A stretch of 64,000 bases of DNA from Zygnema cylindricum (Eukaryota; Streptophyta; Zygnematophyceae; Zygnematales; Zygnemataceae), in contig JBBHKE010002640.1 in assembly GCA_037447655.1 (NCBI GenBank), positions 608,696-672,695 on the forward strand. Reading direction: 5' to 3'. Shown piece after piece: positions 21,799 to 48,537 of the stretch. Every line of letters begins with the position of its first letter. The first letter of the stretch is position 1. Position numbers and translations under genes: made by a program. The notes under the pieces were generated by a model, which searched no databases, had not been told where the DNA came from, and worked only from the letters and a program-made list of their open reading frames with translations.

Positions 21799-22196
21799 GG
21801 TTATGGGCCCACCCTCTAAGGTACCCACATTCAATGGATCTGGGTTCATCTATTGGGAAGCCATGATGATGGGAGATTTGTGCGAAAAACGATACTTGGG
21901 TATTGTTATGGGACAAGTGAAACGTCCACCTCAGGGAACTCCACAACGGTTTGGTGGAATAAGGTTTGCTTCAACAACCTTTGCTGCAGCAGAGGAGGCA
22001 GATGATGGGGAGAGCACTGTGTTCGAAAAGGGGAAGGAGAAGGAGACGCCTCTTACTTGAATTGCTCTTATTACCACGGCACCCAGAGCGACGACCGTAA
22101 AGACCGCGGAGAACGACACCCAAACGTGGGAAGACATCAACATGGCTGCCAAAAACTTCATTCTAAGACACCTCACTCAGGCTTTAGTAACTATCA
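21779..22196 (+). pseudogene. C1g gag 5' fragment
   Basis: The start codon is at 21779 (MEDTKLLVMGPPSKVP), and the primer-binding site at 21799-21813 matches GGTTATGGGCCCACC exactly. The frame is open for 93 codons to 22060. Homology to C1h Gag continues out of frame (NMAAKNFILRHLTQ at about 22140) until element A begins at 22197. The rest of C1g is not seen in the window. Confidence 0.82.
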
Positions 22197-23275
22197 TGTC
22201 GCATCGTATCGTTGCATGCACGCAAGAAATTTAGCTCGCATGCGCGATATTCGTGGCGCGCGCACGATATCATGCATGCACGCACGATTTCCGCACGCAC
22301 GCATGGTTTTAGTTGCACGTTTGAGTTTCGTAGTTTTCATTAGTAAAATATTGTCGATTCACTTATTTGTGACGTGTACGCGATTCGCGTGCACGTTTCG
22401 TTGAAAAGTACTAATTTTGTGCGATACTTTTTATTTCGTGCGTAGGTATTTTGATTTCGAGTATTTTGTGCGGTATGCTTCGTTTCGTGCGTATGCACGC
22501 GATTTCAAAGTATGGACGCGGAGTATCGTTTGGAGGCGAATCGGGATTTCCGGGCGACGCTTCGATACATTTATATATTTAAGTCGCGAACCCATGTAGG
22601 TTTGCGTGTACATGTAGTTAGGGAGGGTTTTTACCCATGGACGGTGGATTTTGTTGAGCGTACGGCAGACGATGTTGGCTGCCTATTGGCCAACATCTTA
22701 ATTAGTTTCATGCATGTCAAGTAGGCTAGACGTAGCCTAGTTTGCTTATGCCTAGCGTAGCTCCTACTTAGGTTAATTCTAAGACTTATAGAATTTTAGC
22801 TTTTGGACAAGAATTTTCTCTTGGCCCGGAGCTTTTCTCTTGCTCTCTCTCTTACCGATTGCTCAAGTATCCGCTTTTCCTTTGCTAGCTAGCTGTAGAA
22901 GCTATATAAACTACGTATATTCTCCCTTGTATTTTTGCCCACGCTTTTTAATCCACGCGGCTCAAAGCCAAGTCCGGAAGGTTTCCCTCCAACTTGTGTC
23001 ATTTTTGGGAAGTGGTGGATTGGAGTTCGTGTGAAGAAGCATCCGGATCCGGCTGCGCCTCTCACGGACAGCTGAACGGTTAAGGGTGTTTGTATTTATG
23101 TTGTTTGTAATTCGGTTGGGAATGGAAGAGTGAATCTTGGCCGAATTTGGAGTTTTCCTTGTTTTTGGTTGGAATTATTTATTTGCTCTGTTGCCTTTTT
23201 GAGATAACTCTTATAGAGAATACGATAGAGACCCGAGAGCAAAGGGGATACCTCGTGGCTTAGTATTTTTGTCCA
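22197..23275 (+). repeat. Element A 5' LTR
   Basis: This is the LTR of the methyltransferase-carrying family. It begins TGTCGCATCG and ends CTTAGTATTTTTGTCCA. It is homologous to the reverse complements of 50176-51342 and 38002-39165. The first 150 bp hold a short version of the 20-bp CpG-rich array. No 3' LTR for copy A is present in the window. Confidence 0.78.
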
Positions 23276-24530: not shown

Positions 24531-26330
24531 CCCCTTTGTTTATGCCCACGGATTGGGATAACCTTCTTATCAATCCGGTTCCACCTAAGGTGGTATATTT
24601 TATCGTCCTCCGCGGTTAAATTCTTCGAATTTTCCCGAATCGTTGACCACATTCGATCCGATTGCGCATCGCAGATCGCTGTCAGTGCGGAGTGGTCTGG
24701 CATCTACGTGATCATTGTCCTCGGTTTCATCTAGGTCATACCTAGAGGAGACCGAATAAGACTTTTCGAAGGCCACCTTTCCACCTCCTCACACTCGGAG
24801 GTTCTTTGCCAGCCCAGCTTTGGCACAACCGGCCCATCCTCCCTTTTACGACATGGCTTCCTCTTCAAAAGGATCCATAGGTAAGATGCAATTCTGCTTT
24901 TCTAGATTAAAGGACACCATGTCTTTATCGCATTTCCGGATGTTATACGACACGAAAATGAGGGATCTAGCCTTTAGATATCAGGATACGTTTGACCTCC
25001 GTGTCGCCTTTTCCCTTCTCGGTCGATACCTCTGTGGTACTGCCCTCACTCTCTACACTTGCAAGTACGAGGATGTTCTTTCGATGACAGAGTACGTGGC
25101 TCCCTTTGCGGGGTTACCAGAAGTCCTCGGCCAGGTGGATATCCCATATCAGGCTGCGAAACCGGCTGTATTAGATGCCAACGGGGATGAGTTGTACCCA
25201 GCTATCCTCGAGGTTCCTCGTCAGTATGCAGTGGCTGCCCGAGCGGCAGTCCCAGCTAGAGCGGGGGAAACCATTCCTTTACGTGACCCTCTCTTAGTCA
25301 TGTTTGACATCCTCCAAGAGGAGTATTGGATGCAAAATCCGGATCAGATCAAAGAGTTGATGAACTTCGAGTGTAGGCCAGGTGAAACTGCTCCTGCCTT
25401 GCGAGCTCGGATGGAAACTCTACGAGAGGCATACTCGGACCTCATGTCCGATGCGGAGGCTGTCCAGAAATTTGTGGGACAGTTTCCAGGTCCATCAAAG
25501 TGGTTTATCGAAAACCACCTCAACCAGATGTATGGACTGAAATTCACCTTTGAGCAAGCGGCTCAATACGCGGTAGAGTATGAGATGCAGACATTGTGGT
25601 GGGACGCCCATGAGCAGTCCATACCTCCTCACAGGGAACCGGCTAATCCATCTCCTCCTCCACCTAAAAACCCATGGCCTCTTGATAGGCCCCATAAGAC
25701 GCCAACCATGGAACTCCACCCGTTAGTCTCGGAAACCGAATGTATTTCCGATGTGAAAAAACCGGGCACGATGCCCGCATGTGTCCTGACAAGGCGGCCA
25801 CTTGCACTCATTACCACTAAAAGGGACATTATGTCCATCGGTGCCACATCAAGGACCCTAATTTCACTTATCAAAATCAGATAAAGAACGGCGGAATTCC
25901 GGCCCGTTCCGCGAAACCAGTCACTCCGCCTAAGGAGACCGAGAAGGAGGAAGCTCCTCCTAAGATCTCTCGTAGAGAGAGAGAGAAGGCCGAGCTTCAA
26001 GCCACAATGGCGGCCATGATGAAAGAGCAATTTACAGCTTTCATGGCGGAAATGAAACCCCAATTTACTTGGATGGCTAGGACTGTTGTCCACATGCCGT
26101 CGTTGGCCGGGCGAACCCTTCGCGATTCCACCGTCCAACAACGGGTGGCCACATTTGAAAAGGGCTTAGCAGACCATAATCGAGTGGGCAAATTACAAAA
26201 TTCTCGTTTCCCACTCTCATTTGCAAAAGAGCCTCTGTCTTCCCTACCGGAAACCGCGGTAGAGGCACTGACCATATTGAATGGCACTATTCATGAGGCT
26301 CATCGGGTGAAGGAGCGATAAAGTATTCTT
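24531..26330 (+). pseudogene. Element A gag with two CCHC knuckles, frameshifted
   Basis: The capsid-like frame is open at 24820-25884 (MSLSHFRMLYDTKMRDLAFRYQ, then a long helical region up to TFEQAAQYAVEYEM). Between about 25640 and 25870 the frame shifts, and knuckle 1 reads YFRCEKTGHDARMC (first Cys lost to Tyr). Knuckle 2 reads CTHY...KGHYVHRC with a stop inside it. A later frame (26007-26321) continues with MAAMMKEQFTAFMAEMK. Copy B supplies the same order. The family is unlike the copia Gags around it; Ty3/gypsy affinity is likely but not shown. Confidence 0.75.
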
Positions 26331-26810
26331 TCAGCGATGTTGGAGGATGTATCAAAAGCCCTTCCCTTCGTTTATGAGGTCGCAGCAGCAGCCGCTTTGA
26401 GGGCTCTGCGGTTAAACCGCAGTCTCTCAGCGGTTCAACCGTTTACTACGGAAGAGCGTCGTAATCTCGATCCCTATATCAGTTTCCTTGATAACTCTCG
26501 GGGATCATTCTCAGTGAACGGTGTTCACCCCACTCTTCCTCTCATGGACACTAAGGCCAAACTCGTGATCCTCGGATCCGGATTTGCGCTCAAGCTTGGT
26601 CTGACAACAAACAAGCTTCAAGCGACAGCTACCCGCCTTCTTACTTCTGCTGGGACCACGGAGCCGGTCCTCGAAATCACAAAGGACCCGCTCATCTTTC
26701 GGTTTCAGAAAGGAACCGAAAATGAGCCCGTTGAAATTTTCGTCAGAGCATTGGTCACTAAATGTAACGACTATGGGTGTTTAGTGGGTCAAGGCGTTAT
26801 ATTCTGAATT
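26331..26810 (+). pseudogene. Element A aspartic protease-like domain, catalytic Gly lost
   Basis: The retropepsin-like block PLMDTKAKLVILGSGFALKLGL lies at about 26540-26605. The catalytic Asp-Thr is kept but the Gly of DTGA is Lys. It is followed by the family blocks ITKDPLIFRF and LVTKCNDYGCLVGQGVIF. Copy B has DTEA at the same place, so the Gly codon has changed independently in both. A protease normally cleaves the polyprotein; neither copy should be active. Confidence 0.75.
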
Positions 26811-27072
26811 GGCGGTGGCGTGGACATGCACCAACAAACATTCTCTTACCAACCAACACAAAATTCTGGAGCGCAAAATTTGCCTCCCCCTCTTTTCAGC
26901 TCGCCGACCTTTGCCGACTATGGCTCACTCGGCTACGGCCGTTCCTGCATTTTTGGGGAACTCCGTTGGGGAGGAAATTTTCCACTCCCTTTAGCCCGAA
27001 GATATCATACCGGATAGTTCTCCACTACCCGAGCTCTTTACGGAACCGGGTTTTCTTATTGATTCTCACACA

Positions 27073-27520
27073 TTGGACCACATCTATAAGTCTACATTAC
27101 CTTTACAATTAACACATATCCCTCTCATTCCTCCAATAACTACCGATCCTTCGAGGTTCCTCCCTATTAATTGGAAGCCTATACAGTTGAGTCCTCATAC
27201 GGACGGGGTCGTTATTTTAGACTTATTTTTTGGGATCGGAACTTCTCTACTGTCATGTTTACGGAATGCGCTTCTCATTCGTCACTATTATGCACTGGAA
27301 ATAGATGCTATAGCTAGAAAGGCACAGTTGCATCACTGCAATCTCTTACATTCCTAGTATCCACAGTTGCTTCCAAAGTCTGCTTTCTTGCATATGCACA
27401 CAACCCTTCCACAGGACATCCGCATCCTTAGTATCCACCACCTACGGGATGTGGAGCCGATAGACCTTGTTTTCGGGGGGTGTGAGTGTCAAGGCATGTC
27501 TTGGGCCGGCAAAGGTCTTG
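27073..27520 (+). pseudogene. Element A cytosine-5 DNA methyltransferase-like domain, truncated
   Basis: After a short Pro-rich linker the frame reads GVVILDLFFGIGTSLLSCL (motif I, S-adenosylmethionine binding), then RHYYALEIDAIARKAQ (motif II with its acidic residue). After one TAG at 27355 it continues LPQDIRIL, then VEPIDLVFGGCECQGMSWAG (motif IV with the catalytic Cys in the Cys-Gln pair, where the usual Pro-Pro-Cys-Gln is Cys-Glu-Cys-Gln) and KGLGF. The order and spacing of I, II and IV fit C5-methyltransferases. Motifs VI-X are missing because the sequence diverges at about 27520. Methyltransferase capture by LTR elements is known in a few lineages; a host gene fragment is the alternative. 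Confidence 0.75.
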
Positions 27521-28022
27521 GTTTTTGAAAGAAAACATACATTCTAATTGTTTAATAATTCTAATTTGGGCCTTTTAAAAAAATAAATGTCGGTCGTATA
27601 CATGCTTACACTAATATAGGTACTCGTACAAAATCTGACAAATCGTACGTTCACACAGTCGAAACGTAGTCGTTGGACGAATATGTGCGAACGTGATATT
27701 TGACAACCTGATTTTATCCCCTTTTTAGAGCGCATATTCTCATGCGTCCGCGGTTACTAAAACTCATTCATTATACTTTTTCAATTAAAAAGGTACAATT
27801 TTGTACGGTTTGACATGTACTGTACACCACACTATTAAAAAAATAACGTACTTTCGTTTTGTACGGTACTTGGAATATAACCCTAAATGGCGTACAGAAA
27901 AAAATAGAATAAGCTACGCTATTTGAGAATAAAACAAAAAAAAAGCGGGACGGAATTAGCGTACACTACACTAATAGCGATTGGCGGTGTAGTTGCTTGC
28001 GCCTGACCAAAATGACGCATGC
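27521..28022 (+). other. AT-rich spacer, no gene seen
   Basis: Nothing coding is recognised here. The GTACGG and TACAATTTTGTAC words suggest worn repeat sequence. It separates the broken end of element A from the foldback element. Confidence 0.5.
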
Positions 28023-28873
28023 CAATATGAAGGGAATTGCTAATCGCAGAGACGATTTTTGCTGCGCGCAGATAGTTGTCAGAAATTGTACATTTGAAGT
28101 ACATTTTCGTACCTTAAAGTTCAGATTTGACGGTCAACCCGTCGAACAAATTTGACTGGCGAAATATTGTAACGGCGGTTAAAAAAGTGTCGCGCTTGCG
28201 AACGTTGACCGTCATTAAAAAATAAACAATTCACACGGCCGGCGCAGGTTTACTGTAACAAAACTGCGGCAGCCACATGTAAATAAAATGGCTGCGCGCA
28301 GATAATTTCTCACTTCACGTGAGCTCCACTGTGAGAACACACACCGACATGCTCTCACACCGACATTTGACTCCGCCGCAAAAATGGAATCTAATGGCGA
28401 ATGCTCTCACACCGACATTTGACTTCGCCGCAAAAATGGAATCTAATGGCGAACCGTTACACTGAACTTGGACACAAATTAAAGGACGACGTACAACATG
28501 TATAAAATCGCACGAAACAAAATAAATTTCGTACAAAATAAAAAAGCGTACTCGCGTATAAATATCGATGAGCTCAAGTGAGAAATTATCTGAGCGCTGC
28601 CATTTTATTTATATGTGGCTGCCGCAGTTTTGTTACAGTAAACCTGCGCCGGCCGTGTGAATTGTTTTTTTTTTATGACGGTCGACGTTCGCAAGCGCGG
28701 CATTTTTAACCGCCGCTACAATATTTCGCCAGTCAAATTTGTTCGACGGGTTGACCGTCAAATCTGAACTTAAAAATACGTAGCTTGTACGAAACTGTAC
28801 TACAAATGTACAATTTCTGACAACTATCTGCGCGCAGCAAAAATCGTCTCTGCGATTACCAATTCCCCAATAT
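28023..28873. mobile_element. Foldback element with arms of about 300 bp
   Basis: The left arm (about 28023-28325) and right arm (about 28567-28873) are long inverted repeats of each other. They share GCAGAGACGATTTTTGCTGC, GACGGTCAACCCGTCGAAC and GCCGGCGCAGGTTTACTGTA, the right arm as reverse complement, with scattered differences and small gaps. The 240-bp middle contains a 52-bp direct repeat (starts near 28350 and 28402, GCTCTCACACCGACATTTGA). No transposase frame lies inside, so it is non-autonomous. No clear target duplication was found. Confidence 0.85.
28350..28453. repeat. 52-bp tandem duplication in the foldback loop
   Basis: Two nearly identical units begin TGCTCTCACACCGACATTTG and end AATCTAATGGCGAA. 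They differ by CTCCGCC versus CTTCGCC. Confidence 0.85.
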
Positions 28874-29459
28874 GAATTCCCAAATTTAATTCGATTTTCG
28901 CACATTTGTAATCCTGCAGTTCCGTTATGTGCTTGCGGAATGTACGGTACAGTTCTGTAAATCCTTGTATTCCATGACTGACATCATCGTAGTGATCCGT
29001 CTCGATCCAAAGTGCACAGTTTCGTAGACGAAGTTCTCCACAGGTGAAAAGGATCATCGCAAATGCCATCTCATTCTGTCATGTGTCGGTGATGGTGATA
29101 TGTTCCTTGGTCAACGCTGTAATCTTTTGGCGCCATCGTAATCTGTTCCAATGAGGGCGATTTCCAATCAGGGTCGGCATCGGCCATGGCGGCCAGACTG
29201 GCAACACGTTCAGCTGAAACCTTCCTGCACATCCGACACCCTTGTTGTAGGTTTTCTAGGACGCTATTTGGAAGCCACGTGTCAATGTGTCAAAGCTGTC
29301 AGGTGACCAGACCACAGAAGGCAAGTCAGCATCGGGGATTCAGGAGTCAAGGTTTGCCTCAAACTGCTTTCTATAAGGAAAAGGACGCTCATGCTTATCT
29401 AATAGGGGCGAATTCCTGGTTTTTGTCCAGAGAAAAAAAGGAAAAGTTTGGTGAGTATC

Positions 29460-31826
29460 ATGTCAGAGATGGATATTACATGGTATCGGTGGCATGGCAT
29501 TTTTATGGCGGCCCCGTTTGCTGTTCTATTGCCAGTTTCTTTTATTTTAGGAAGGTGATTGGATTTATTATATAATTAAGATGCTCTAAACAACCTCAAT
29601 TGTTTGTAGTTAGTATCAAGCGACCATTGAAGAGAAATATAACCTGTAATGTCTTATATTTAGTAGAGGTTTGCATTAAAGTCGATGTTTCTTTCTCATG
29701 AGGAAACATTTTACGTTTGTGTTTTGCTCTTATAATTGCGATTAATAATTTGGAAAGTCCAGGGACTTTTGTTCAATGTTGGCAAAACGAGGTTACCTAT
29801 GTCTAACTGTCCTGTATGTTTATGGAATAGTCTATTTTTTTCCATTTTCCGCTCCGTTGTTTTAGTGTGTACTGTTAATTTCTTTCTACAGTCGATCAAT
29901 ATGCTATTTTACAAATGCATTTTGTGGTTATGATTGTGATATGTTTATAATGTTCACAAAGTGCTTATTTCCTCAATAAATTTTATATTATTTATGGTAA
30001 TTTTTCTTCATGTTTGGTTTCTTATTTTTGCTTGCAGATGTTCATTGGTGACACCGGCACGTCGCTTCTTCCTCTTACTTCATGTTGTCACGTCACTGGC
30101 AGCTTTCCTGGCTGTAGGGGCAGGCCTTGTCGTTCTTTATTGGAAAATTCCAGATTTAAGGTCCATAGACAAGCTGAAAACACGACATGGCTCTATTGGA
30201 GCCGGGGCGGTGGCTGCATTGATTCTCATTGCAGTCAACAGTTGCATCTGCTTTCCTAACAGAAAGACAACTAAAAGATCATTTGGATGGATACTACTGC
30301 ACAAAACTGCAGGTGTGCTTGTTGTTCTTGCAGCAGGTTACGTTTCTTACATCGGTATTGGGACTTATGACGATCTAACAGGGGCCTCGCAACCCACGGT
30401 AAGAAGACTTAGGGTCTCAGCTGGTGAATTTTGAAATCTGAATGCGCTTGGTTTTTTGTAATCAGGCGAACTGTTTTGTCAATCGGAATGGATATTTCAG
30501 TTAATTCGAAGAGAAGATCATGACATTTGTTAAAAAATCCGTCCTTGGCCTCATGGTACTTCAAGTTTCTTTCTGAGGGTGTTGTCGTTTTTTGCTTTAC
30601 AATGGATCTTGGCTGGTGTTGCAGCTGTACATTGGAGCCTACGGAGGTTGCACTGGGTTACTGCTTTTTCTGTATTTTATTCTGTTGTTTATACCAGCCA
30701 GGGACCCATCTCGCTTGGCCTTAATTGCAAAGGACTTCGATATGGTGTCAGCATCAAATGGCAGCAAGAAAAATAAGCACAAGCCCTGGCCACCAGCAGA
30801 TATTTCATGGCCATCAAGTCACCGGGCAATGCTCGCTGCAGGTGTTTATATCAAAACATGGTTTCTTTTTTTTGAAGTTTGCCTGTTTAGTCACTAGTGG
30901 AGATTTGTGAATATGTTCGATGCAGGTGTTTATATCGTTTTTTTTGTTTTTTTTTTTTTTGGCAGTGGAGATTTGCGAATGTGTTGCTGCTTTATTGTTA
31001 TTTGCATCCACTGACTCGTCCATATTAGCACCATCAGAACATTTAGTCTTGTCTAGTTTTAGGAGTTTCCAGCCAATAAAGACGTTTTCGACGTAGATTC
31101 TGAAAAGTTTCTTCGTAGATTTTGTTATCCTGTGTGTTATTTTGTTCATCTTTGTATGCATGTCAGCTTCATATCCATGCTGTGGCTGAGTTAAACAAGA
31201 AAAAACTGAAGGTGAAAAGTGCTTGGTTTCTTGAAACAGGTAACTTTGAGCAGCTCCCCAAGCTTGGCGCCAGTGCCCAGAGTCCTCTCTCAGTAACAGC
31301 AAGAGTTCCTGCCTCTGGCTTTGCATCGCCAAGTGCTTCAGCAAGTGACATGAAGGATATAAAACAAGCTCAACCTGATTTGGAGACAGGAGGCGTATCA
31401 AATACCACAGGAGAGCAACAGTCAGACGGGTCCCAAGGGAACACCTTGAAAAACAGAGGGAAAGGGTCTCCTTCCGCTCCTACAATGTCCCCTCTTTCTG
31501 CCACGTCAAATGCATCCCCCGATTTTCACCCGTTGTTGCCGAAGGGAGAGACGACGAAGAATGAGAAGAGTCCAGAAAGTAGTAGTCAGGCAACAAGTAG
31601 CACTAGAGATACGGTCTCTAGTGTTCTGGTTGATAGTGGAGAAATACGCAGGATTCCCAACGTGTCCTCCTCCTACACGAGCATTACTGATTCTGAGGGT
31701 TCCAGATTCCCAGGAACTGTAAGCAAGCAGATACGTCCAAAACCTTCTGAATTGGAATCAGTTGATTTGGATGTAGCTCCGCCTAGAAAGCCACGTCATC
31801 CAGGAGATAAAACTGTTGTTTTATGA
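29460..31826 (+). CDS. Cytochrome b561-domain membrane protein, spliced host gene
   Basis: The exons I can support are 29460-29554, 30038-30398 and 30625-30841; the first three join in phase (2 then 0) at GT/AG sites. The product begins MSEMDITWYRWHGIF and has five hydrophobic helices. Four His fall at residues 12, 47, 82 and 120 (WHG, LLLH, RHG, LLH). The spacing of 35, 35 and 38 is close to the 34/34/39 spacing of the two haem pairs in b561 proteins. The family moves electrons across membranes, usually from ascorbate. Upstream exons remain possible. The 3' end is unsettled: the 31167 acceptor in phase 1 gives a stop at 31187-31189 (about 231 residues, typical length). The long open frame to 31826 is in another phase. 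Confidence 0.82.
30838..30985 (+). repeat. Local tandem duplication across the intron 3 donor
   Basis: GCAGGTGTTTATATC occurs at about 30838 and again at about 30926. In both copies it is followed by a T-run and AGTGGAGATTTG(T/C)GAAT. The duplicated unit of about 88 bp contains the exon 3 donor, giving a second, decoy donor-like or acceptor-like site in the intron. Confidence 0.75.
31167..31826 (+). CDS. Possible last exon of the b561 gene, Ser/Pro-rich tail
   Basis: An open frame of about 219 codons follows a good acceptor (TATGCATGTCAG) and ends with TGA at 31824-31826. It is hydrophilic and rich in Ser, Thr, Pro and charged residues (e.g. LETGNFEQLPKLGASAQSPL, VDLDVAPPRKPRHPGDKTVV), as expected of a cytosolic disordered tail. 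It is phase 0 at the acceptor, whereas exon 3 leaves in phase 1. So an unseen exon, another donor or a sequence error is needed if it is translated with the b561 core. Confidence 0.5.
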   Translation, partial: LHIHAVAELNKKKLKVKSAWFLETGNFEQLPKLGASAQSPLSVTARVPASGFASPSASASDMKDIKQAQPDLETGGVSNTTGEQQSDGSQGNTLKNRGKGSPSAPTMSPLSATSNASPDFHPLLPKGETTKNEKSPESSSQATSSTRDTVSSVLVDSGEIRRIPNVSSSYTSITDSEGSRFPGTVSKQIRPKPSELESVDLDVAPPRKPRHPGDKTVVL

Positions 31827-37690: not shown

Positions 37691-37785
37691 GCGAGAGGTC
37701 AATATAGTGATGTAGACATGGTCCCTTGGAAAAGGGAAGAGTCAAGCATCGACGCTCGAATCTTCACACAATGAATGTGTCGTGC

Positions 37786-38000
37786 ATGAGCGACAAGCAA
37801 GCGAAGATGCATCACAACCAGCAAAGTCATGCTCACAAACATATATACCAACAAACTTAAATATGAAAAGTCAAAAAAATATATACACCATGAGAAGGAA
37901 TAAAGGTTAAAATGACCAAAAGAGAGAAGGGGAAGAATACTCCCCTAGAGTGAAGTGGAAAGAGAGAAAGGGAAGAATACTCCCCTACAGTGAGTGGACC
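37786..38000 (-). repeat. Direct repeat flanking the element B 3' LTR, left copy
   Basis: About 210 bp, nearly identical to 39170-39390 and in the same orientation. It lies on the far side of the LTR, where host flank would be expected. It includes the paired ACTCCCCTA(G/C)AG words. Confidence 0.85.
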
Positions 38001-38001
38001 C

Positions 38002-39165
38002 AGAGGTAGCCACTAGGCTCTCTGGTCTTTACCACATTCTCTACAAGAGTTATCTCGTTACGACAGCAAAGCAAGAAATATTCCAACCGGATCAAGGGAA
38101 AATCCAAATCCGATCAAGAATACACTCCTTTCAAGCCAACCGAAATACAAACAAGACACACACACACAACCAAACCGTCAAGCTGCCCGAGGAAGGCACA
38201 GCAAGGTCCAGATGTGCTCCCTCACGATCTCCAATCTCACACTTCCACCAAATGACAAACTTTGGAGGGAAACCTTTCGGACATGGCCTTAGGCCGTGTG
38301 GATTAAAAACAAGGGCAGAAAAACAAGGAGAATATTCTTACTCTATCTAACCTCTACAGCTAGCTAGCAAGGAGAAGAAAGACACGTGGGCAATCGGTGA
38401 GATTGAGCAAAAGAGAAGCTCAGCCGCCAAGAGAAAATTCTTGTACAAAAGCTAAATTCTCTAAGTCTGAGAATTAGGCTAAGTAAGAGCTACGCTAGGC
38501 CTAAGAAAAATTAGCCTACGTCTAGTCTATTTTACATGCATGAAACTACTTAAGATGTTGGCCAATAGGCGGCCAACTTCGTTTGCCGTACGCCTGACAA
38601 AATCCGCCGTCCCAGGGTAAAAACCCTCCCTAACTACATGTGAGCGCGAACCTACAAGGGTTCGCGACTTAAATAAAGAAATAAATGGTGTATCGAAGCG
38701 TCGCCCAGAAATCGCAATTCGCCTCCAAACGATACTCCACGTCCATACTTCGAAATCCTAGTACCTACGCATGAAATAAAAGGTATCGCACGAAATACTC
38801 GAAAAATGTGTACCTGCGCACAAAATGAAACGTCTAACACGAAATTAGTACTTTTCACTGAAACATATAAATAGATGAATCGGCGTGAAATCGCACGTGC
38901 GAATGAAAATTATGCACACGAGCCAAAATCGTGCGTGTATGCCTAAAATTGCGCGTGCATGCATAAAACCACGCGCGCGTGCCTTAAACCGTGCGTGCAT
39001 GTGAAATACCTCGCGTGCGTGAGAAATATTGCGCGTGCGTGAGAAATACCGCGCGTGCATGAGAAATATCGTACGTGCGTGGGTAATATCATGCGCGCGT
39101 GCCGAATATCGCGCGTGCGAGCATGGTATCGTGCGCGCGAGCTACCGACACGATGCGGCATGACA
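38002..39165 (-). repeat. Element B 3' LTR
   Basis: On the minus strand it begins TGTCATGCCGCATCG at 39165, like the B 5' LTR at 51342. It ends near 38002, about 20 bp short of the full LTR end (TTGGCTTAGCATTCTTGTCCA is missing). The CpG-rich 20-bp array occupies 38885-39150. Confidence 0.78.
38885..39150 (-). repeat. 20-bp CpG-rich minisatellite in the element B LTR
   Basis: About 13 units with exact 20-bp register, of the form GCGCGTGCGTGAGAAATAYC, each with 3-5 CpG sites. The B 5' LTR has a matching array at 51081-51330. Copy A has a shorter, scrambled one (22205-22310). Confidence 0.85.
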
Positions 39166-39169
39166 GTTG

Positions 39170-39390
39170 TCGTGCATGAACGACAAGCAAGCGAAGATGC
39201 ATCACAACCACCAAAGTCATGCTCACAAACATATATACCAACAAACTTAAATATGAAAAGTCAAAAAAATATATACACCATGAGAATGAATAAAGGTGAT
39301 AATGACCCAAAGAGAGAAGGGGAAGAATACTCCCCTAGAGCGAAGTGGAAAGAGAGAAGGGGGAAAATACTCCCCTACAGTGAGTGGACC
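39170..39390 (-). repeat. Direct repeat flanking the element B 3' LTR, right copy
   Basis: This is the internal-side copy, where the 3' end of element B should be, and it adjoins the LTR start. See 37786-38000. Confidence 0.85.
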
Positions 39391-39414
39391 CAATAATTCC
39401 CCCCCCCAGCCCGT

Positions 39415-39625
39415 TAGCCTGTAGAGGAGCTGGTCAACGCAACTGAGGGCTCGGAACAGATATAGAGGCAAAGCAGGGTTGAAAGATAATGGAGAAGAGA
39501 GGCACTCCATGTGGAACCCTTGATCACCACCTGTACATGTATAAACCCTCAGCAAACTCAACATCCCGTTAGTATCGTTGTCCACGACATGGAGAATGTG
39601 TGGAGAGACCTTAATGTGGATGGTA
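39415..39625 (-). pseudogene. Element B PHD-finger-like remnant
   Basis: A minus-strand open frame (from about 39585) reads NDTNGMLSLLRVYTCTGGDQ followed by GFHMECLSSPLSFNPALPL and a Cys at about position 50. This matches the second half of a PHD finger: CxxC (second Cys now Gly), then x4-His-x2-Cys, then the Leu-x-Pro-Leu turn. The first Cys pair is His-Ile-Leu-His. PHD fingers read histone tails. Its neighbours are C1h on the right (element B resumes at 45986) and the B 3' LTR side on the left. A chance match to PHD cannot be excluded. Confidence 0.5.
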
Positions 39626-40585
39626 TCTCAAACTTGTCGCAGTCACTGAGAAATTGGAGAGGAAGCTAGAGCCATGGCTACCTTGGCTATCCTGAGGTTT
39701 ACGGGAATTTTATTATAGGGTTTATATATTTGATTAAAATGAATATGCCGGCGGCAGGATTTGATCCATGTACCTGCCGGCCGGCAGACACGAAGTAGCC
39801 GGTAGCCTTAGCCGTTTCGTCTAGAGGTATTGTTACATAGCATATAGTTTGATAATTATTTAAATATGTATTCTTGCGATAAACCATTTAACTAGAATTA
39901 ATTACGGGATACATAGATCCAGTAATATGTAATGTACGACTTACGGTACGGACATAAATCAGTACCGCGCATTTGTTTCGTAAATGAAACAAATACCGCG
40001 CATGTATTTATTACGGCCACGATTAAAGCCGAATTTAATCGGACGGCCGGGATTAGCGCCGAGATCGCGGAGGAAGATTTCGGCGGTTTGTGGCCATCGC
40101 CACATCGGATGACGCGTGGCAAAATTCCGTTGGATTGTGGAAACTCCGGAGATTATGGCACCGAATCCGGATTTGACATGTGTCGACATTTTGGCCATGT
40201 CGTACAATGTCCGTACATAAAGTACACCGGCAGCTGTACTTTTGCGTACGGAACTCAATTCTGATTGGTTCCGTACATCAGTAGATAGAGTCTGTGAGAG
40301 AGATAGGACTTAGAAAAATTAGAAGATAGGACCCCCTCTCCCAGAGAGCTTCTGTACAAAAGGTCAACTTTGACCCTCCATAACTTACTGCTCAGGGGAG
40401 CAAATTCAGAGATTCTTTTTGCTATCGACTCAGGGGAGTCTTGTCTTCACAGGGGTGAAGTTGGTCAGAGTTTTTGTGTGCCAGGGTGGCAGTTATTTTT
40501 GCTTAAACACAAAGGGGTCAGGATTATCCTAGAGGCTTCTTGGAAGCTGTCCACTCTGAGGACTTATGGAGGTCTCAGAGTTTCA
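39626..40585 (+). repeat. C1h 5' LTR, missing its first 89 bp
   Basis: Identical to 45026-45985. It ends TTTCA directly before the primer-binding site. It lacks the hairpin's 5' arm and the LTR start TGTAGAAAC. Confidence 0.95.
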
Positions 40586-43316
40586 GGTTATGGGCCCACC
40601 CTCTAGGGTACCAATATTTAATGGAACTGGCTTCATATACTGGGAAAGTATGATGATAGGAGCTCTATGCGAAAAAAGGTTTTGGGGGATAGTGAGTGGA
40701 CGATTGGGGCGTCCATCAAGTCTTGGAATTCCTCCAGGGTTTAAAGGAAGCAGATTCACCAGGAAAGAGGATTCACCTTCAACGGAGGAAACAAAGGAAG
40801 GAGAGGTGGTGGACAAAGGAAAGGAGAAGGAGGCGACCACACCAATAGCAACTGGTTTAGCATTCATGTCACCTATTCCGAGGAACGAGGAGAATGATAC
40901 TGAAACCTGGGACTTCAACAATATGGCGGCAAAGCACTTCATCCTACGCCATCTCACTCAAGGACTTGCATGTCCTCATTTGCAGGTAGAGAGGGCATCC
41001 GATCTTTGGATGGCTCTCATAGAGATGTACCGAAGTGGTACGATTCAGCAACAACAGTTGGCTGATCAGAAAGTTAAGGAGTATGTATACAAAGGGGGAA
41101 ATATGTTGGATTTTTGCAATGAGCTTGCTACACTCTTCATGGAGCTAGAGAGTGCGGGTAAAGTTTTTAGTGAAAAAGAAAAAGTTAACTGTTTACTAAT
41201 GAAGTTACCTGATGAGTTCGAGAACATAGTCAACCGTGTGCAGGACTTGCCGGACTCAAGGTGGATATGGAACTCAGTGGTAGGGATGATTCTCGTTCGA
41301 GAGAATACGATTGAGATCCGAAGGGGAGGAAAGAGTGGCCAAGCCTTGGCAACAGCGACCGATTGGAGGAACAAGGATTCTCGGAAACCAGTCGGAAACT
41401 ATGGGGGTAGGGAGCAGAAAAAACAGGTTGGCGAGTTCGAACCAAGGGCTCCCAAAGGTTTATGTCATTTTTGTAAGAAACCAGGGCACTATATGGCAGA
41501 GTGCACCAAGCTAACCGAGCTTCGGTTAAAGGAGGGGCAGACCGGTGGTACCCCGAGAGGAAAGAAAAAGGCCCTTGTCACACAGGTACTTGAGGCGGAA
41601 TCCGAGGACGAGGACGATGAGCTCCTTTTGGATGAGGAGTTGGAGGCGAAAACTGAGGTTGAAATTCCACGAAGGCAGAAATGTGCTTACGGTGGATTGA
41701 AAGGTGAAGCAGGCTGGATTATAGATTCAGGTGCCTCAATGCACATGTGTAAGGATAGACACCTGTTCACTAAGATAAGAAAGATTCCCACCGTAGAGAT
41801 AGAGTACGGGGATGGGAGGATAGTCACCACTACTCTTGTAGGATCGGTAGATCTGAAAGTGTTAGTAGAAGGAAAGACATCCATATTAACATTCTCCGAT
41901 GTATTGTTTATTCCGGAGCTGAACAAAAACCTTATCTCTACATCAGTATTAGATGATAAGGGTTTTTTCACTAGCACTAGGGAAGGAGTCTTTACTGCTA
42001 GTTTTGAGGAGGATGTCTATTTCATTGCTGAGAAAGGTAGCCATGGGATGTTTAGGCTGATCTTAAGTAATGAAACGAAGAAACTTTATTATGCTGGTGT
42101 TCATGATATTATGATGTGGCATAAGAGGCTTGGGCATGTGAATCTAGATAAGTTAAGAGAGATGAAAAAGATGGGAGTGGTGGAAGGGATTCAGTTCAGT
42201 GAGAGTGATGATATAAGTGATTGTAGTGGATGTGCTCAAGGTAAAGCACACAGATTACCCTTTCCAAAAACAGCCACCTACAAGGGAGAAAAACTTCTAG
42301 ATCTAGTACACACAGATATTTGGGGACCGGCTAGAGTGCCCTCACCGGGGGGGAAGAGATTTATGATGACTATAACTGATGATTGGTCTCGGTATTCCCG
42401 AGTATATTTTTTGAAAAACAAGTCAGAGGCTGAGGATTGTTTTAGACAATATAAAGCATGGAGCGAAAAACTCCATGAAACTCCAATCAAGAGAGTAAGG
42501 AGTGACAATGGTGGAGAGTATACTTCTAACCAGTTTGAGGATTTTTTGAGGGAAGATGGGGTTCAACACCAAAAGACAGTTCCAGAAAATCCGGAACAGA
42601 ATGGGGTAGCTGAAAGGTTAAATAGAACACTAAGTGATAGTGCTAGAAGTATGTTGCCGAAAAAAAAAATAGGAAAAAGGTTTTGGGCAGAAGCAATGAA
42701 CTGTGCTAATTACCTCAAAAATAGAGTTCTTACTTCAGCTATAAAAGATCAAACACCTTATGAGAGATGGACAGGCCGGAAACCAGATTTATCTCATTTA
42801 AAGGTTTTCGGCAGTCAAGTATTCAGTCTAGATACTGATCGGTCCAATTGGAAGCTAGATCCTAAAGGAAAACCGGGATACTTATTAGGATATGATGAGG
42901 ATGTTAAAGGATATAGAGTTTATGATCTAAAAAGAGAAGATATAATCTTAGTAAAGCATCTAGTAGTTATGGATGAAGGAAAGTCTGTGGATCCCTTCAA
43001 ATATACAAAGTCAGTAAAAATCAGATTTGAGTCAGAAAATTCTGATGACTTTGAGCTTCCTAACTATCCAGGTTTTAGAGACGATGACATTCTTGCAGGA
43101 ACAAATCAGACCGAAAAGGACTCGGCTGTGGAAACTCCAATGACAACTCTACTCGAAGCGGAAGACGTGGTGGAAATTGATTCGGAATCAAGGGATGGGG
43201 AGAAGCCGAGTTTGTTCGAAAGAATCCACGAAAACCATCTATTCTGGCCTCAGATTTTGAAGGGGGGAGGAGAAGTAGCAAAAGACTGCAAGAAAAATAG
43301 GTTAATAACAAGGTAA
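40566..43316 (+). CDS. C1h Gag-protease-integrase polyprotein
   Basis: A 916-codon open frame. It starts MEVSEFQVMGPPS, the first 20 bp lying in the LTR. Capsid covers residues about 10-250, a CCHC knuckle about 300-313 (CHFCKKPGHYMAEC), and aspartic protease about 383 (WIIDSGASMHM). Integrase has its zinc-binding part at about 517-556 (WHKRLGH, CSGCAQGK) and catalytic Asp-Asp-Glu in HTDIWG (about 582), SDNGGEY (about 646) and PEQNGVAERLNRT (about 676). The last stretch after about 43200 is read in a shifted frame relative to relatives (QILKGGGE instead of SDFEGGRR), so a one-base frameshift cuts it off from reverse transcriptase. Confidence 0.93.
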   Translation: MEVSEFQVMGPPSRVPIFNGTGFIYWESMMIGALCEKRFWGIVSGRLGRPSSLGIPPGFKGSRFTRKEDSPSTEETKEGEVVDKGKEKEATTPIATGLAFMSPIPRNEENDTETWDFNNMAAKHFILRHLTQGLACPHLQVERASDLWMALIEMYRSGTIQQQQLADQKVKEYVYKGGNMLDFCNELATLFMELESAGKVFSEKEKVNCLLMKLPDEFENIVNRVQDLPDSRWIWNSVVGMILVRENTIEIRRGGKSGQALATATDWRNKDSRKPVGNYGGREQKKQVGEFEPRAPKGLCHFCKKPGHYMAECTKLTELRLKEGQTGGTPRGKKKALVTQVLEAESEDEDDELLLDEELEAKTEVEIPRRQKCAYGGLKGEAGWIIDSGASMHMCKDRHLFTKIRKIPTVEIEYGDGRIVTTTLVGSVDLKVLVEGKTSILTFSDVLFIPELNKNLISTSVLDDKGFFTSTREGVFTASFEEDVYFIAEKGSHGMFRLILSNETKKLYYAGVHDIMMWHKRLGHVNLDKLREMKKMGVVEGIQFSESDDISDCSGCAQGKAHRLPFPKTATYKGEKLLDLVHTDIWGPARVPSPGGKRFMMTITDDWSRYSRVYFLKNKSEAEDCFRQYKAWSEKLHETPIKRVRSDNGGEYTSNQFEDFLREDGVQHQKTVPENPEQNGVAERLNRTLSDSARSMLPKKKIGKRFWAEAMNCANYLKNRVLTSAIKDQTPYERWTGRKPDLSHLKVFGSQVFSLDTDRSNWKLDPKGKPGYLLGYDEDVKGYRVYDLKREDIILVKHLVVMDEGKSVDPFKYTKSVKIRFESENSDDFELPNYPGFRDDDILAGTNQTEKDSAVETPMTTLLEAEDVVEIDSESRDGEKPSLFERIHENHLFWPQILKGGGEVAKDCKKNRLITR
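40586..40600 (+). other. Primer-binding site of C1h, inside the gag frame
   Basis: GGTTATGGGCCCACC directly follows the LTR end. It complements the internal anticodon-arm segment of initiator tRNA-Met (half-tRNA priming as in Drosophila copia). It is translated as part of the Gag codons for Gln-Val-Met-Gly-Pro-Pro. Confidence 0.88.
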
Positions 43317-43360
43317 CTAAACTATCTCATCAAGATGAACCTCAAACTTATGGAGAGGCG

Positions 43361-44923
43361 ATGAATTGTCCAGAAAGAAATCGGTGGAAGACAGCCATTA
43401 ATGAAGAGATGGCCTCAATTATGGCAGCCGATACTTGGGAGCTGGTGGATTGTCCACCTAACCGAAAACCAATCGGTTGTAAGTGGGTTTTCAAACTAAA
43501 ACTGAACCCAGATAACACAATCGAGCGCTACAAGGCCAGATTAGTGGCAAAGGGATTTACACAAAAGGAAGGAATTGACTACGAGGAAACCTTTGCCCCG
43601 GTGGTCAGATTTCCCTCCGTCCGCATACTTCTCAGTTTAGCAGCGGCGGAAGACATGGAAGTGCACCAGATGGACATCAAAACAACCTTTTTGCATGGAG
43701 AATTGGAAGAGGAGATCTTCATGCGACAACCCGAAGGGTTTGTGGAAGAAGGAGAGGAGAGTAAGGTATGCCGGCTGATTAAATCTCTTTATGGTTTGAA
43801 ACAGGCGCCCCGACAGTGGAATAAGAAGCTTGATGAGTTTCTTACCGGTCTAGGATATATTCGGATCAGCTCAGATCACTCAATCTATGTTTTCGAAGAT
43901 GAGGAAGGTTTTATATTTATTGCAATTTATGTTGATGATTTGCTTGTTTTAAGTAAATCAATGGAAAAAATTAATAAACTGAAAACCGATCTTAAAGGGA
44001 GATTTGAAATGAAGGATATGGGGGAAGCAAAATATATTTTGGGAATTCAAGTAGAGAGAGACCGAAAAAGAAAAATTATAAGATTGACTCAAAAGGAAGC
44101 AATAGGGAACATGCTTGAAAAATTTCAAATGGATAAAGCTAATAGTTGTATAACTCTAATGGAGTTGAAGAAGGGATGTGAGGGGAGTGAGGAAGGAGGA
44201 GTCATAGTCTTAGACGAGGAATTATCTCCTGAAGAACAGAAGTTCATGCAGACTATTCCTTACAGGCAAGTAGTGGGAAGTCTAATCTATTTTATGAATT
44301 GTACCCGGCCGGATTTAGCTGCAGCTGTAGGAGTGCTGAGTAGAAGTCTAAATGCTCCCACTAAGAAGGATTGGGAGGCAGCTAAGAGAGTCCTTAGATA
44401 CTTGGTAGGAACTAGAGATCTATGGTTGCATTTGGGTGGGGAGAATACTGACATCACTACTTGGAGTGATGCCAGTTATGGTGATGCTCCGATGAGGAGA
44501 TGTACTTCTGGATATGTATTATATGTGGGTGATGGGGCTTGCTGTTGGAGTAGCAAACAGCAAAAGGTTATTGCTCAGTCCACCATGGAGGCTGAGTATA
44601 TGGCCTCTTGCTCTGCTGTAAAAGAATTGATGTGGGTCAAGTCTTTGCTCGGTGAGCTTGGTCACCTTAAGAGTGGTGTGCAGAAAATATTTTGTGATAA
44701 TCAGGCAGCAATCGCTATTTCTGCCAATCCTAAACACCATTTTAAAGCCAAACACATGGACATCAGACTCAGCTTTGTTAGAGAGAAAGTAGAAAACAAA
44801 ATAATCAGTTTAGAGTATAGACCAGATAGTGAGATGGTAGCGGATATGATGACCAAACCTGTGCCTTCCCCTAAACTAATTTTTTGCAGGGAGAAGTGTG
44901 GTCTGAAATTAAAGATTGACTAG
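43361..44923 (+). CDS. C1h reverse transcriptase-RNase H
   Basis: A 520-codon open frame in the -1 frame relative to the upstream one. Reverse transcriptase has IGCKWVFKLKLNPDNTIERY, LYGLKQAPRQWNKKLDEF and the polymerase box IYVDDLLVLSKS. RNase H has TWSDASYGDAPMRR, CCWSSKQQKV, STMEAEYMA and the end DMMTKPVPSPKL, then TAG. In-frame sequence upstream (VTKLSHQDEPQTYGEAM) shows the true domain begins before 43361, just after a TAG at 43298-43300. In C1j the homologous codon is CAA. The enzyme motifs are complete; translation would need suppression or frameshifting, or the copy is freshly dead. Confidence 0.92.
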   Translation: MNCPERNRWKTAINEEMASIMAADTWELVDCPPNRKPIGCKWVFKLKLNPDNTIERYKARLVAKGFTQKEGIDYEETFAPVVRFPSVRILLSLAAAEDMEVHQMDIKTTFLHGELEEEIFMRQPEGFVEEGEESKVCRLIKSLYGLKQAPRQWNKKLDEFLTGLGYIRISSDHSIYVFEDEEGFIFIAIYVDDLLVLSKSMEKINKLKTDLKGRFEMKDMGEAKYILGIQVERDRKRKIIRLTQKEAIGNMLEKFQMDKANSCITLMELKKGCEGSEEGGVIVLDEELSPEEQKFMQTIPYRQVVGSLIYFMNCTRPDLAAAVGVLSRSLNAPTKKDWEAAKRVLRYLVGTRDLWLHLGGENTDITTWSDASYGDAPMRRCTSGYVLYVGDGACCWSSKQQKVIAQSTMEAEYMASCSAVKELMWVKSLLGELGHLKSGVQKIFCDNQAAIAISANPKHHFKAKHMDIRLSFVREKVENKIISLEYRPDSEMVADMMTKPVPSPKLIFCREKCGLKLKID

Positions 44924-44936
44924 AAAATAAGGGGAG
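44923..44936 (+). other. Polypurine tract of C1h
   Basis: GAAAATAAGGGGAG overlaps the RNase H stop codon and abuts the LTR start TGTAGAAACTAATGG. Confidence 0.9.
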
Positions 44937-45006
44937 TGTAGAAACTAATGGTTTTATTAGTATTTTCTAGGTCTGAAAAGAAATATAGAAGTCGAGGCAG
45001 TCTATC

Positions 45007-45069
45007 TCTAACTTCTCTCTCCAACTCTCAAACTTGTCGCAGTCACTGAGAAATTGGAGAGGAAGCTAG
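45007..45069 (+). other. Conserved LTR hairpin with invariant loop
   Basis: Arms CTAACTTCTCTCTCCAA and TTGGAGAGGAAGCTAG flank the loop word ACTTGTCGCAGTCACTGA. The same loop word with different but still complementary arms occurs in C1a, C1d, C1e, C1g, C1i, C1j, C1b and C1c. Confidence 0.75.
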
Positions 45070-45146
45070 AGCCATGGCTACCTTGGCTATCCTGAGGTTT
45101 ACGGGAATTTTATTATAGGGTTTATATATTTGATTAAAATGAATAT

Positions 45147-45225
45147 GCCGGCGGCAGGATTTGATCCATGTACCTGCCGGCCGGCAGACACGAAGTAGCC
45201 GGTAGCCTTAGCCGTTTCGTCTAGA
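45147..45225 (-). other. Antisense tRNA-like segment in C1h LTR
   Basis: On the minus strand a B-box word GATCAAATC is preceded about 55 bp upstream by a D-arm-like region (GGCTAAGGCTACCGG). The T-stem is worn here, but in older C1 LTRs it is perfect with different base pairs. Transcription by RNA polymerase III is a possibility, not shown. Confidence 0.55.
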
Positions 45226-45985
45226 GGTATTGTTACATAGCATATAGTTTGATAATTATTTAAATATGTATTCTTGCGATAAACCATTTAACTAGAATTA
45301 ATTACGGGATACATAGATCCAGTAATATGTAATGTACGACTTACGGTACGGACATAAATCAGTACCGCGCATTTGTTTCGTAAATGAAACAAATACCGCG
45401 CATGTATTTATTACGGCCACGATTAAAGCCGAATTTAATCGGACGGCCGGGATTAGCGCCGAGATCGCGGAGGAAGATTTCGGCGGTTTGTGGCCATCGC
45501 CACATCGGATGACGCGTGGCAAAATTCCGTTGGATTGTGGAAACTCCGGAGATTATGGCACCGAATCCGGATTTGACATGTGTCGACATTTTGGCCATGT
45601 CGTACAATGTCCGTACATAAAGTACACCGGCAGCTGTACTTTTGCGTACGGAACTCAATTCTGATTGGTTCCGTACATCAGTAGATAGAGTCTGTGAGAG
45701 AGATAGGACTTAGAAAAATTAGAAGATAGGACCCCCTCTCCCAGAGAGCTTCTGTACAAAAGGTCAACTTTGACCCTCCATAACTTACTGCTCAGGGGAG
45801 CAAATTCAGAGATTCTTTTTGCTATCGACTCAGGGGAGTCTTGTCTTCACAGGGGTGAAGTTGGTCAGAGTTTTTGTGTGCCAGGGTGGCAGTTATTTTT
45901 GCTTAAACACAAAGGGGTCAGGATTATCCTAGAGGCTTCTTGGAAGCTGTCCACTCTGAGGACTTATGGAGGTCTCAGAGTTTCA

Positions 45986-46560
45986 GATGAGAAAACCGGG
46001 CTCACTAAAACTATCTCGCAAAGGTGGGGTGGCGGGTAGGATCCTTACCGGGAAAAAAAAGTCGCAATTGTCTTCCCTAAGGTTGATACTGGATAATGGA
46101 GGGAGAGTGGAAGCCAAATGAGCCATGGTGGGCAACGGTTTGCGAGACAAGAGGGAGGCAGATTTTGCGTCACAGAAAATTAGAGGGACGGTAGGAGAAG
46201 GTCTGATCATGCATATCTACTCCCCCACCAATTCGGAAGATAACATCCTGTCCCACTAAGCATTCGTAGTCGTTGCATTTGGTGACCAATGCTCGGACAA
46301 AAACTTCCACGGGCTCACTCTCGGTTCCGTTGTGAAACCGAAAGACAAGCGGGTCCTTGGTAATTCCAAGCACCGGCTCTGTGGTACCAGCTGAAGTGAG
46401 AAGCTGCGTAGATGTGGCTTGGAGCTTGTCTGCTGTCAGACTAAGCTTGAGCGCAAATCCGGATCCAAGGATCACGGGTTTGGCTTCGGTGTCCATGAGA
46501 GGGAGAGAAGGAGCAACATCATTAACAGAGAAGGACTTTTGGGAATTGTTCATGAAACTG
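45986..46560 (-). pseudogene. Element B aspartic protease-like domain
   Basis: The minus-strand frame at 46553-46170 holds PLMDTEAKPVILGSGFALKL, then TSAGTTEPVLGITKDPLVF and LVTKCNDYECLVGQDVIF. The catalytic Gly is Glu (DTEA). Downstream sequence (46210-45986) matches element A up to about 27050 and stops at the C1h LTR edge, just before the place where copy A enters its methyltransferase domain. Confidence 0.75.
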
Positions 46561-48537
46561 ATGTGAGGATCAAGGTCACGGCGCTCATCCGCGGTAGCCG
46601 GCTGAATAACTGAAAGACTAAGGTTCAGCTACAACGCCCTCAAAGCGGCGGCTGCAGCGAAATCATCAACAAGGGGAGAGGCTTTGGGAACCTCATTAGA
46701 AAAGCGAGAGGCCCTGGGGGCTTTATCAATCATGGTAGAAAGGATGCTTACCTGTTCCTTGACTCGATGTGCATCATGTATGGTACTATCCAGAATGGTG
46801 AGAGCTTCAGCCACAATCGAGGAAGCTGTGTCTGGTAGAGGTGAGAGAGATTCTTTCTTGAAAAAAAGTAGAAGGGAATTTGGGAATTTACCATCCCGAT
46901 TGTGATCAGGCGAGCCCTTATCAAAACTAGCTACCCGTTGTTAGACAGTAGAATCCCGAAGGATTCGGCCGGCCAACGATGTCATGTGGACGATTGTCCT
47001 CGCCATCCCCGTGAATTGGGGTTTCATTTCGGCCATGAAGGAAGCAAATTACTCTTTCATCATGGCGGCCATCATGACTTGTAACTCAGCCTTTTCCCTC
47101 TGTCGTCGAGAGATCTTAGGCGGAGTCGCCTCTCTCTCGGTCTATGTTGGAGGAGTGACCGGCTTGGCAGAACGGGCAGGAATTCCACTGTTTTGAATTT
47201 GAATCTGATACGAAAAATTAAGGGTCCTTAACATGGCAGCGGTGGACGTAATGTCCCTTCTGCTTGCAATGGGTGCATGTGATCGACTTATCTGGGCACA
47301 TGCGGGCATTATGCCCCGTGTTTCCACATCGGAAACATAATCGGTTTTCGGAATTAAATGGCGGGTTTCCCATGGTCGGCGTCTTTGGAGGCCTATAAGA
47401 AGGCCACGGGTTCCTCAAAGGTGGTGGGGATTGGTCAAATTGGTTTCTTTAAAATTCGGGATTTTCATGAGCATCCCACCACGACAATTACATCTCGTAC
47501 CTAACCGCATATTCAACCGCTTGCTCAAAGGTAAATTTCAGCTTGTATGTTTGACTGAGATGAGTCTGAATGAATATTTTTGATTGAGGAGGAAACTGTC
47601 CCACGAATTTTTGGACAGCCTCTGCATCGGACATAAGGTCTTGTAAGGCTTCTCGAAGGGTTTCCATTTGAGCTCGTAAAGCATGGGCAGTCTCACCCGG
47701 CCTACGTTTGAAGTTCATCAACTCCTTAACCTGATCTCGATTTTGCATCCGGTATTCTTCTTGGAGAAGATCGAACATGACCAATAGCGGGTCACGTAAA
47801 AGAATTAATCCTCTCGGTCTAGCTGGAACCGCCGCACGGGCAGCCACAGCATACTGCTGGGGAATCTCGGGGATGGCTCGATATAGCTCATCCCCATTAA
47901 CATCCAATACTGCTAGAACAGCCGCTTGATAGGGAATTTCTACCTGGCCGAGAACGGCAAGGAGTCCAACAAAGGGTGGAGAGTGCTCTGTCATTTGACA
48001 GATACTTTCATACTTCCGTGTGTATAAAGTGAGAGCCGAACCCCGAAGGTATTGTCGAAGGAGAGAGAAAGCGACCTTAAGGTCGAACCGGTCTTGATAT
48101 CGGAAGGCAAAGTCTCTCATTTTTGTGTCATAAAGCATGCGGAAATGAGATAAGGACATGGTATCCTTCAATCCGGAAAAACAGAATTGCATCCTACCCA
48201 TGGATCCCTCTGAGGAGAAAGCCATGTCGTCAAAAAGAGGATACACAGGTTGTTCCAAATTTGGACTAAACGGAAATTGAAATGTAAGAGGATGAGAAAA
48301 GATTTCCTTTAAAAAGTCTTCTTCGGTTTTATCTAGGTATGACCTAGAGGAAACCGAGGATAATGGTGAGACTGTGGTCAATATTGACCGAACTGACGGA
48401 GATCTAGGGGCCGCAACTGAAAATGGTGCGTTCGTAGACTCGGAAAAACTAGAAAGATCTAAATGCGGTGGACGGAAAACTGTCCCGCCGCGGGTAGATC
48501 CGGATTGATAATGTAAGTTATCCCAATCCGTGAGCAT
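46561..48537 (-). pseudogene. Element B gag with two intact-looking CCHC knuckles
   Basis: The 349-codon open frame at 48537-47488 contains a Ser/Pro-rich N-terminus and the capsid-like blocks MSLSHFRMLYDTKMRDFAFR and MNFKRRPGETAHALRAQMET. It stops at YEM, where copy A reads on. A second frame (47418-47218) has CFRCGNTGHNARMC and CTHCKQKGHYVHRC, both full CCHC. Between 47200 and 46560 the coiled MAAIMMKE... region of copy A is present but broken. It is better preserved than copy A, so the family consensus is best read from here. Confidence 0.78.

Follow-up and report, generated by a model that had tools for sequence, protein, structure and literature searches.

Remains of a C5-cytosine methyltransferase domain in a decayed LTR-type retroelement that probably belongs to a known split-repeat kind

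The 64-kb stretch of DNA analysed here (the window) contains two decayed copies of a retroelement family, element A on the plus strand and its sister copy B on the minus strand. Element A starts at 22192 with a left terminal repeat, A1 (22192-23254, plus strand), which begins with TATCATGTCGCATCG and whose interior is about 79% identical to the repeats of copy B; the repeat was located by blastn of A against B and its start by reading. It is followed on the same strand by an ORF extending from the first ATG at 24853 to 25884 (stop-to-stop frame 24760-25884), by two CCHC knuckles recognised in the translation (25737-25859, plus strand) and by a retropepsin-like domain (26322-26807, plus strand). 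Since neither this ORF nor its counterpart in copy B gave a meaningful Pfam match, the name gag-like refers to the position ahead of the knuckles. The protease of element A scored 15.8 bits with PF13650, below the cut-off of 24.3, and no Pfam match was obtained for the retropepsin-like ORF of copy B. Gag-like ORF, knuckles and protease had all been announced upstream of the methyltransferase, on its strand, in an earlier note on this DNA, and all are present, with the knuckles numbering two and being damaged: the first Cys of knuckle 1 is changed to Tyr, and knuckle 2 has its second Cys changed to Tyr plus one stop, while both knuckles are intact in copy B. The right half of element A is missing, its remainder contains internal stops, and A1 is the only one of its repeats that survives. 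Its left flank (22102-22179) resembles, at 74% over 78 bases, the gag part of the copia element found in copy B (40883-40960), and element A may therefore sit inside an older copia gag.

Beyond the protease, one frame of element A opens at 26995, meets an internal stop, TAG, at 27355-27357, and then runs on to a TGA at 27526-27528; the remaining two frames have several stops apiece over the methyltransferase stretch. The frame starts with a linker (26995-27198, plus strand), the first part of which (..EPGFLI) was found by tblastn to be common to copy B, and leads into the N-terminal third of a C5-cytosine methyltransferase (27199-27525, plus strand). Here, motif I, DLFFGIGT (27220-27243), motif II, YALEID (27289-27306), and motif IV, GGCECQGMSWAGKGLGF (27475-27525), share a common frame, and translation of 27220-27525 confirmed the order described in the earlier note. 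The domain placed there at 27073-27520 does exist, but its homology starts near 27199 and not at 27073. It is the only methyltransferase copy in the 64-kb window, and the succession of motifs I, II and IV with Cys-Gln in motif IV agrees with membership of PF00145.

The scores obtained with profiles are insufficient alone, since both families remained below their cut-offs: PF00145 (curated cut-off 22) gave 15.5 bits (E 0.012) for a 177-aa reading and 17.7 bits (E 0.0025) for a 109-aa core, and NCBIfam dcm gave 12.6 bits versus a cut-off of 100.65. Such scores, together with an uninformative AlphaFold2 single-sequence model of the piece (mean pLDDT 41.4), would be expected if the motifs were just a chance product of open-frame sequence, an explanation to which we attach a practically negligible probability and which is already contradicted by the controls. 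In tblastn searches at E<=10, the 109-aa core matched 279 of 50,697 phage records and was covered to 80% or more in 211 of these. Its reversed form matched three phage records, with coverage never exceeding 47%, and its shuffled form did not match any. Likewise, when three full-length phage C5-methyltransferases were searched back against the window alone, the best match of each was the piece itself, at 27199/27214-27525, with E values of 5.5e-6, 5.1e-6 and 4.0e-4 (composition statistics off). A loose pattern spanning motifs I to IV, which was composed after the sequence had been seen, occurred once in the window and in none of 150 simulated windows; a looser form occurred on average 0.013 times per simulated window. 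One more phage-enzyme match, at 17245-16961 on the minus strand (E 0.028 with composition statistics off), is interrupted by stops and was taken as chance.

Among the 20 phage matches listed, for which the best E value was 2e-3, nine are annotated as DNA/cytosine methyltransferase or methylase, nine as hypothetical and two carry no annotation. Plasmid records were matched by the core in 45 of 72,556 cases at E<=10 (27 with at least 80% coverage), and the ten listed are all annotated as cytosine methyltransferases. Aligned with four phage enzymes, the read-through core retains among its invariant positions Leu-Phe-x-Gly of motif I, the Asp of motif II and Gly-Gly..Cys-Gln..Ala-Gly-Lys of motif IV. 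A search of solved structures at E<=10 listed 19 sequences, of which 17 were DNMT3A or DNMT3C, one a Cytosine-specific methyltransferase and one unrelated (best E 0.12); in another such search, DNMT3A/3C accounted for 14 of 15 sequences, all with E >0.1. By similarity, then, the stretch 27199-27525 of element A is methyltransferase homology.

The rest of such an enzyme was not found at this locus. Inspection by eye of the three forward frames after 27525, to about 29700, revealed none of motifs VI, VIII, IX and X, and tblastn with the three full-length phage enzymes gave no C-terminal part adjoining element A, so that the motifs VI, VIII and X which the earlier note had suggested looking for past 27520 did not turn up by either approach. 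No continuation of element A was seen by eye in the region 27528-29000. In the rearranged (DRM) methyltransferases, motifs VI-X precede motif I; none of them was recognised by eye in 26995-27198. Because the domain is cut off directly after motif IV and has an internal stop, and motifs VI-X were not found, the proposal of a working methylation enzyme is unsupported for copy A, whose enzyme is predicted from its sequence to be a non-functional fossil.

The architecture of the family is better preserved in copy B (37778-51342, minus strand), whose layout on its own strand is A1-coding-B1-A2-B2, that is, A-coding-B-A-B. Comparison with element A identified the left repeat A1, starting with TGTC (50193-51342, minus strand), a gag-like ORF (47488-48558, minus strand) and a retropepsin-like ORF (46170-46628, minus strand). 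These are followed by a coding tail with a PHD-finger-like remnant, GDQGFHMECLSSPL (39393-39618, minus strand), the repeat B1 (39168-39392, minus strand; 95.6% identical to B2), the right repeat A2 (37999-39165, minus strand; 91.9% identical to A1) and the repeat B2 (37778-38002, minus strand), which the repeat comparison showed to end with GACA. The copy thus ends in TGTC..GACA, and CATT follows B2 as it also precedes A1, a 4-bp duplication flanking both sides; ends and duplication look integrase-made. An ordinary LTR pair was rejected for copy B, since the left end has a single repeat (A) and the right end B-A-B, and since the left repeat begins at one common boundary in both copies (22192 in A). 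No significant B-type repeat was detected beside the left repeat of either A or B (best match E 0.13). The A repeats begin with tandem units of about 20 bp (38905-39185 and 51102-51362). At the B1/A2 junction, two extra bases, AC, separate GACA from TGTC, as in joined element ends.

The assignment of the coding tail of copy B rests on low scores. PF00628 gave 14.5 bits for a trimmed 32-aa piece and 12.4 bits for 74 aa (cut-off 24), and no match for the whole 125-aa ORF. In the search of solved structures, all 12 matches were DPF3, KAT6A/B, AIRE or KMT2D, which we take to be PHD-finger proteins (best E 0.024). Between this tail and the protease lies a copia element (39626-45986, plus strand) with identical terminal repeats at 39626-40586 and 45026-45986. 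Its candidate target, GATG, is present at 45986-45989 and at 39619-39622, and joining copy B at this site yields an open frame of 200 aa that passes from EPGFLI through HIKVSPH to the PHD-finger-like stretch. Removal of a methyltransferase from copy B by the copia insertion is therefore unlikely, given GATG on both sides and a frame open across the join, although a gap of three bases between GATG and the copia repeat at one end leaves this rejection tentative. Copy B has neither methyltransferase nor reverse transcriptase; it is best regarded as non-autonomous and devoid of pol. Judging from what is left of them, both copies are dead.

A and B align with 73% identity over 3,038 columns. In the gag-like region (234 codons, 77% amino acid identity) dN was 0.15 and dS 1.89, the latter near saturation, and in the protease (142 codons) dN was 0.12 and dS 0.95 (NG86, stop codons left out), which indicates that the lineages of A and B are old and retained their coding capacity for a long time. 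Although the protease is under constraint, its site, as presumed from position, reads MDTKAK in A (26544-26600) and MDTEAK in B in place of D-T/S-G, so that both copies show DTK or DTE instead of DTG. The linker match between A and B covers 12 of 22 residues (54.5%, E 0.035, tblastn), which would be weak alone, but it lies at the matching position. From this shared linker, the frame of element A proceeds through motif I without a stop as far as the TAG at 27355, and the open frame 26995-27357 thereby joins linker and domain. Since the frame is continuous with a linker common to copy B, the methyltransferase stretch is most likely part of the element. The claim that an LTR-type element carries a C5-methyltransferase domain is thus supported, with the domain, partial as it is, located in the Pol frame, as in the published KnitGypsy-Dnmt3.

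The main result against this assignment is that copy B is without the domain. One could suppose that a piece of a host gene, or a retrocopy of one, came to lie by chance behind a non-autonomous element with only gag and protease, the normal form of which would be B. Copy B indeed consists of gag, protease and a PHD-like tail, with a 200-aa frame across the copia site that makes it a coherent element, and the homology between A and B stops at about 27060 of A, ahead of the methyltransferase part. However, the weight of the missing domain is limited because B also lacks a reverse transcriptase and cannot, for that reason, be the autonomous form; the frame of A leads unbroken from the shared linker into motif I, with the first stop at 27355; and the same domain has already been published in the same kind of element, as described in PMC5890265. 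We therefore regard the chance neighbour as distinctly improbable. The earlier note had named a family copy that lacks the domain and ends before 27070 as an observation that would speak against it. Copy B fits this description in part, but it is not decisive: A and B are old separate lineages, and so B does not turn the domain into a mere neighbour.

As to the class and origin of the domain, motif IV and the structure matches point in different directions. The earlier note had called its Cys-Glu-Cys-Gln form distinctive; what is odd is the Glu, which occupies the place of a Pro in the four aligned phage enzymes, and the putative catalytic residue should be the second Cys of GGCECQG. The residues before this Cys are Cys-Glu in element A, compared with Ser-Pro (two enzymes), Phe-Pro and Pro-Pro in the phage enzymes. 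The sequence CQG is also unlike the CND of DNMT3A, which counts against a Dnmt3 label, while the solved-structure matches favour DNMT3A, though all with E >0.1. The DNMT3A catalytic domain aligns with the piece around motifs I-II and IV, but it has SPCND in motif IV and is not part of a retroelement. Phage and bacterial C5-methyltransferases of the Dcm type align over almost the full 109 aa, with about 31% identity among the matches listed, but they have Pro-Cys where element A has Glu-Cys, and they lack some 18-21 extra residues that element A shows between motifs II and IV. Acquisition of the methyltransferase from a virus or bacterium, rather than from a host Dnmt3 gene, would account for the Cys-Gln of motif IV, found in all four aligned phage enzymes (CQG in two, CQA in one and CQD in one) in place of CND, and for the 279 matching phage records. 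Against it stand the predominance of DNMT3A or 3C among the solved-structure sequences listed (17 of 19) and the absence of the 18-21 residues from the phage enzymes, and 109 residues are too few to build a tree. We judge such an acquisition unlikely, though it deserves more weight than the chance neighbour.

Retroelements carrying a methyltransferase were characterised by de Mendoza et al. (2018, PMC5890265). According to that paper, KnitGypsy-Dnmt3 of the charophyte Klebsormidium nitens combines a DIRS-type repeat structure with Gypsy domains (Fig. 4c legend) and has its Dnmt3 domain in Pol, and the repeats of SymbioDIRS-Dnmt3 are arranged as A-coding-B-A-B (Fig. 1e legend). A second paper, PMC12344493, refers to LTR Copia and DIRS elements where PMC5890265 has Gypsy and DIRS. 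Going by the published description, KnitGypsy-Dnmt3 and the present family are both LTR-type elements with a methyltransferase encoded in the Pol frame, and both have DIRS-like repeats and no introns. They differ in that only a stump with motifs I-IV is found here, with no reverse transcriptase or integrase seen, and in the motif IV GGCECQG and the PHD-like tail of the sister copy B. With SymbioDIRS-Dnmt3, as described in the same source, the family shares the A-coding-B-A-B repeats (in copy B) and the methyltransferase in Pol (in copy A), but SymbioDIRS has a tyrosine recombinase, whereas the TGTC..GACA ends and the 4-bp duplication look integrase-made here.

The repeat plan comes from B, where no methyltransferase is present, and the methyltransferase from A, where the right end is missing and only A1 is retained, so that no single copy has both. 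DIRS retrotransposons insert without target duplication, and the TGTC..GACA ends of copy B with CATT on both sides speak against membership of this group, the coding region being incomplete. Membership of Gypsy rests on the order of parts, the CCHC knuckles and a weak match, since the gag-like ORFs have no Pfam match and the retropepsin scored below its cut-off. In the readings examined, no reverse transcriptase, RNase H or integrase of the family was seen, A being truncated and B being without pol. Searches of protein databases, which considered only proteins of 0.55 to 1.75 times the query length, yielded no relative: for the 931-aa Gag-protease-methyltransferase reading, none of 214 candidates passed when scored on residues 755-931 and none of 7,993 when scored on residues 1-740 (E 0.01 in both cases), and none of 26 candidates passed for the 177-aa piece (E 1). 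Nor did scans of viral contigs and of prokaryote genome contigs yield a confirmed relative.

Taking together the methyltransferase homology, the open linker frame, the CCHC knuckles and retropepsin-like domain upstream, the repeat plan and ends of copy B and the decay of both copies, we consider it likely that 27199-27525 corresponds to the 5' third of a C5-cytosine methyltransferase which a split-repeat (A-coding-B-A-B) LTR-type retroelement of the KnitGypsy-Dnmt3 kind encoded in its Pol frame. With elements of this sort on record since 2018, element A looks like one more example, in decayed form, and not like something new in kind. Should its host be other than Klebsormidium, retroelements that methylate cytosine would have a wider range than is known so far. 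The link between this kind of methyltransferase and an element of A-coding-B-A-B plan, with ends that look integrase-made and a duplication of 4 bp, also raises the question of how such elements are copied and inserted, with the caution that the form without the methyltransferase (B) sits beside the form that has it (A).

For the DIRS elements, the authors of PMC5890265 propose that methylation of the cDNA acts as a self signal or protects from editing, and a possible benefit for the host is mentioned as well. The same paper states that SymbioDIRS-Dnmt3 domains produced CG methylation in yeast, while the K. nitens domain showed no activity there, a result that its authors call inconclusive. 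The earlier note had suggested that the family may write its own methylation for self-silencing or to escape host sensing. Working copies of the present family might make the methyltransferase domain as part of Gag-Pol and carry it in the element's particle, and the domain would add 5-methylcytosine to the newly made cDNA, either ahead of integration or in the course of it. On entering a methylated host genome, the copy would then resemble the DNA already resident there, something of which copy A itself would be incapable. This specific step of cDNA camouflage is a tentative proposal, on balance somewhat doubtful. Quite improbable, in our view, is that split-repeat LTR elements using an integrase formed a lineage apart, in which a single polyprotein joined a writer of cytosine methylation to a chromatin reader of the PHD type; if this were real, such an element could put marks on its own cDNA and let the state of the chromatin guide where it inserts.

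Two further features lie downstream of element A in what is a eukaryotic host with copia elements. An inverted repeat (28032-28315/28576-28867) with arms of about 290 bp that are 91% identical, foldback or MITE-like, adjoins its broken end. Beyond it lies a cytochrome b561 gene (29940-31826), recognised with PF03188 at 25.7 bits, above the cut-off of 23, over 29940-30431; no Pfam match was obtained for the reading 31119-31823.
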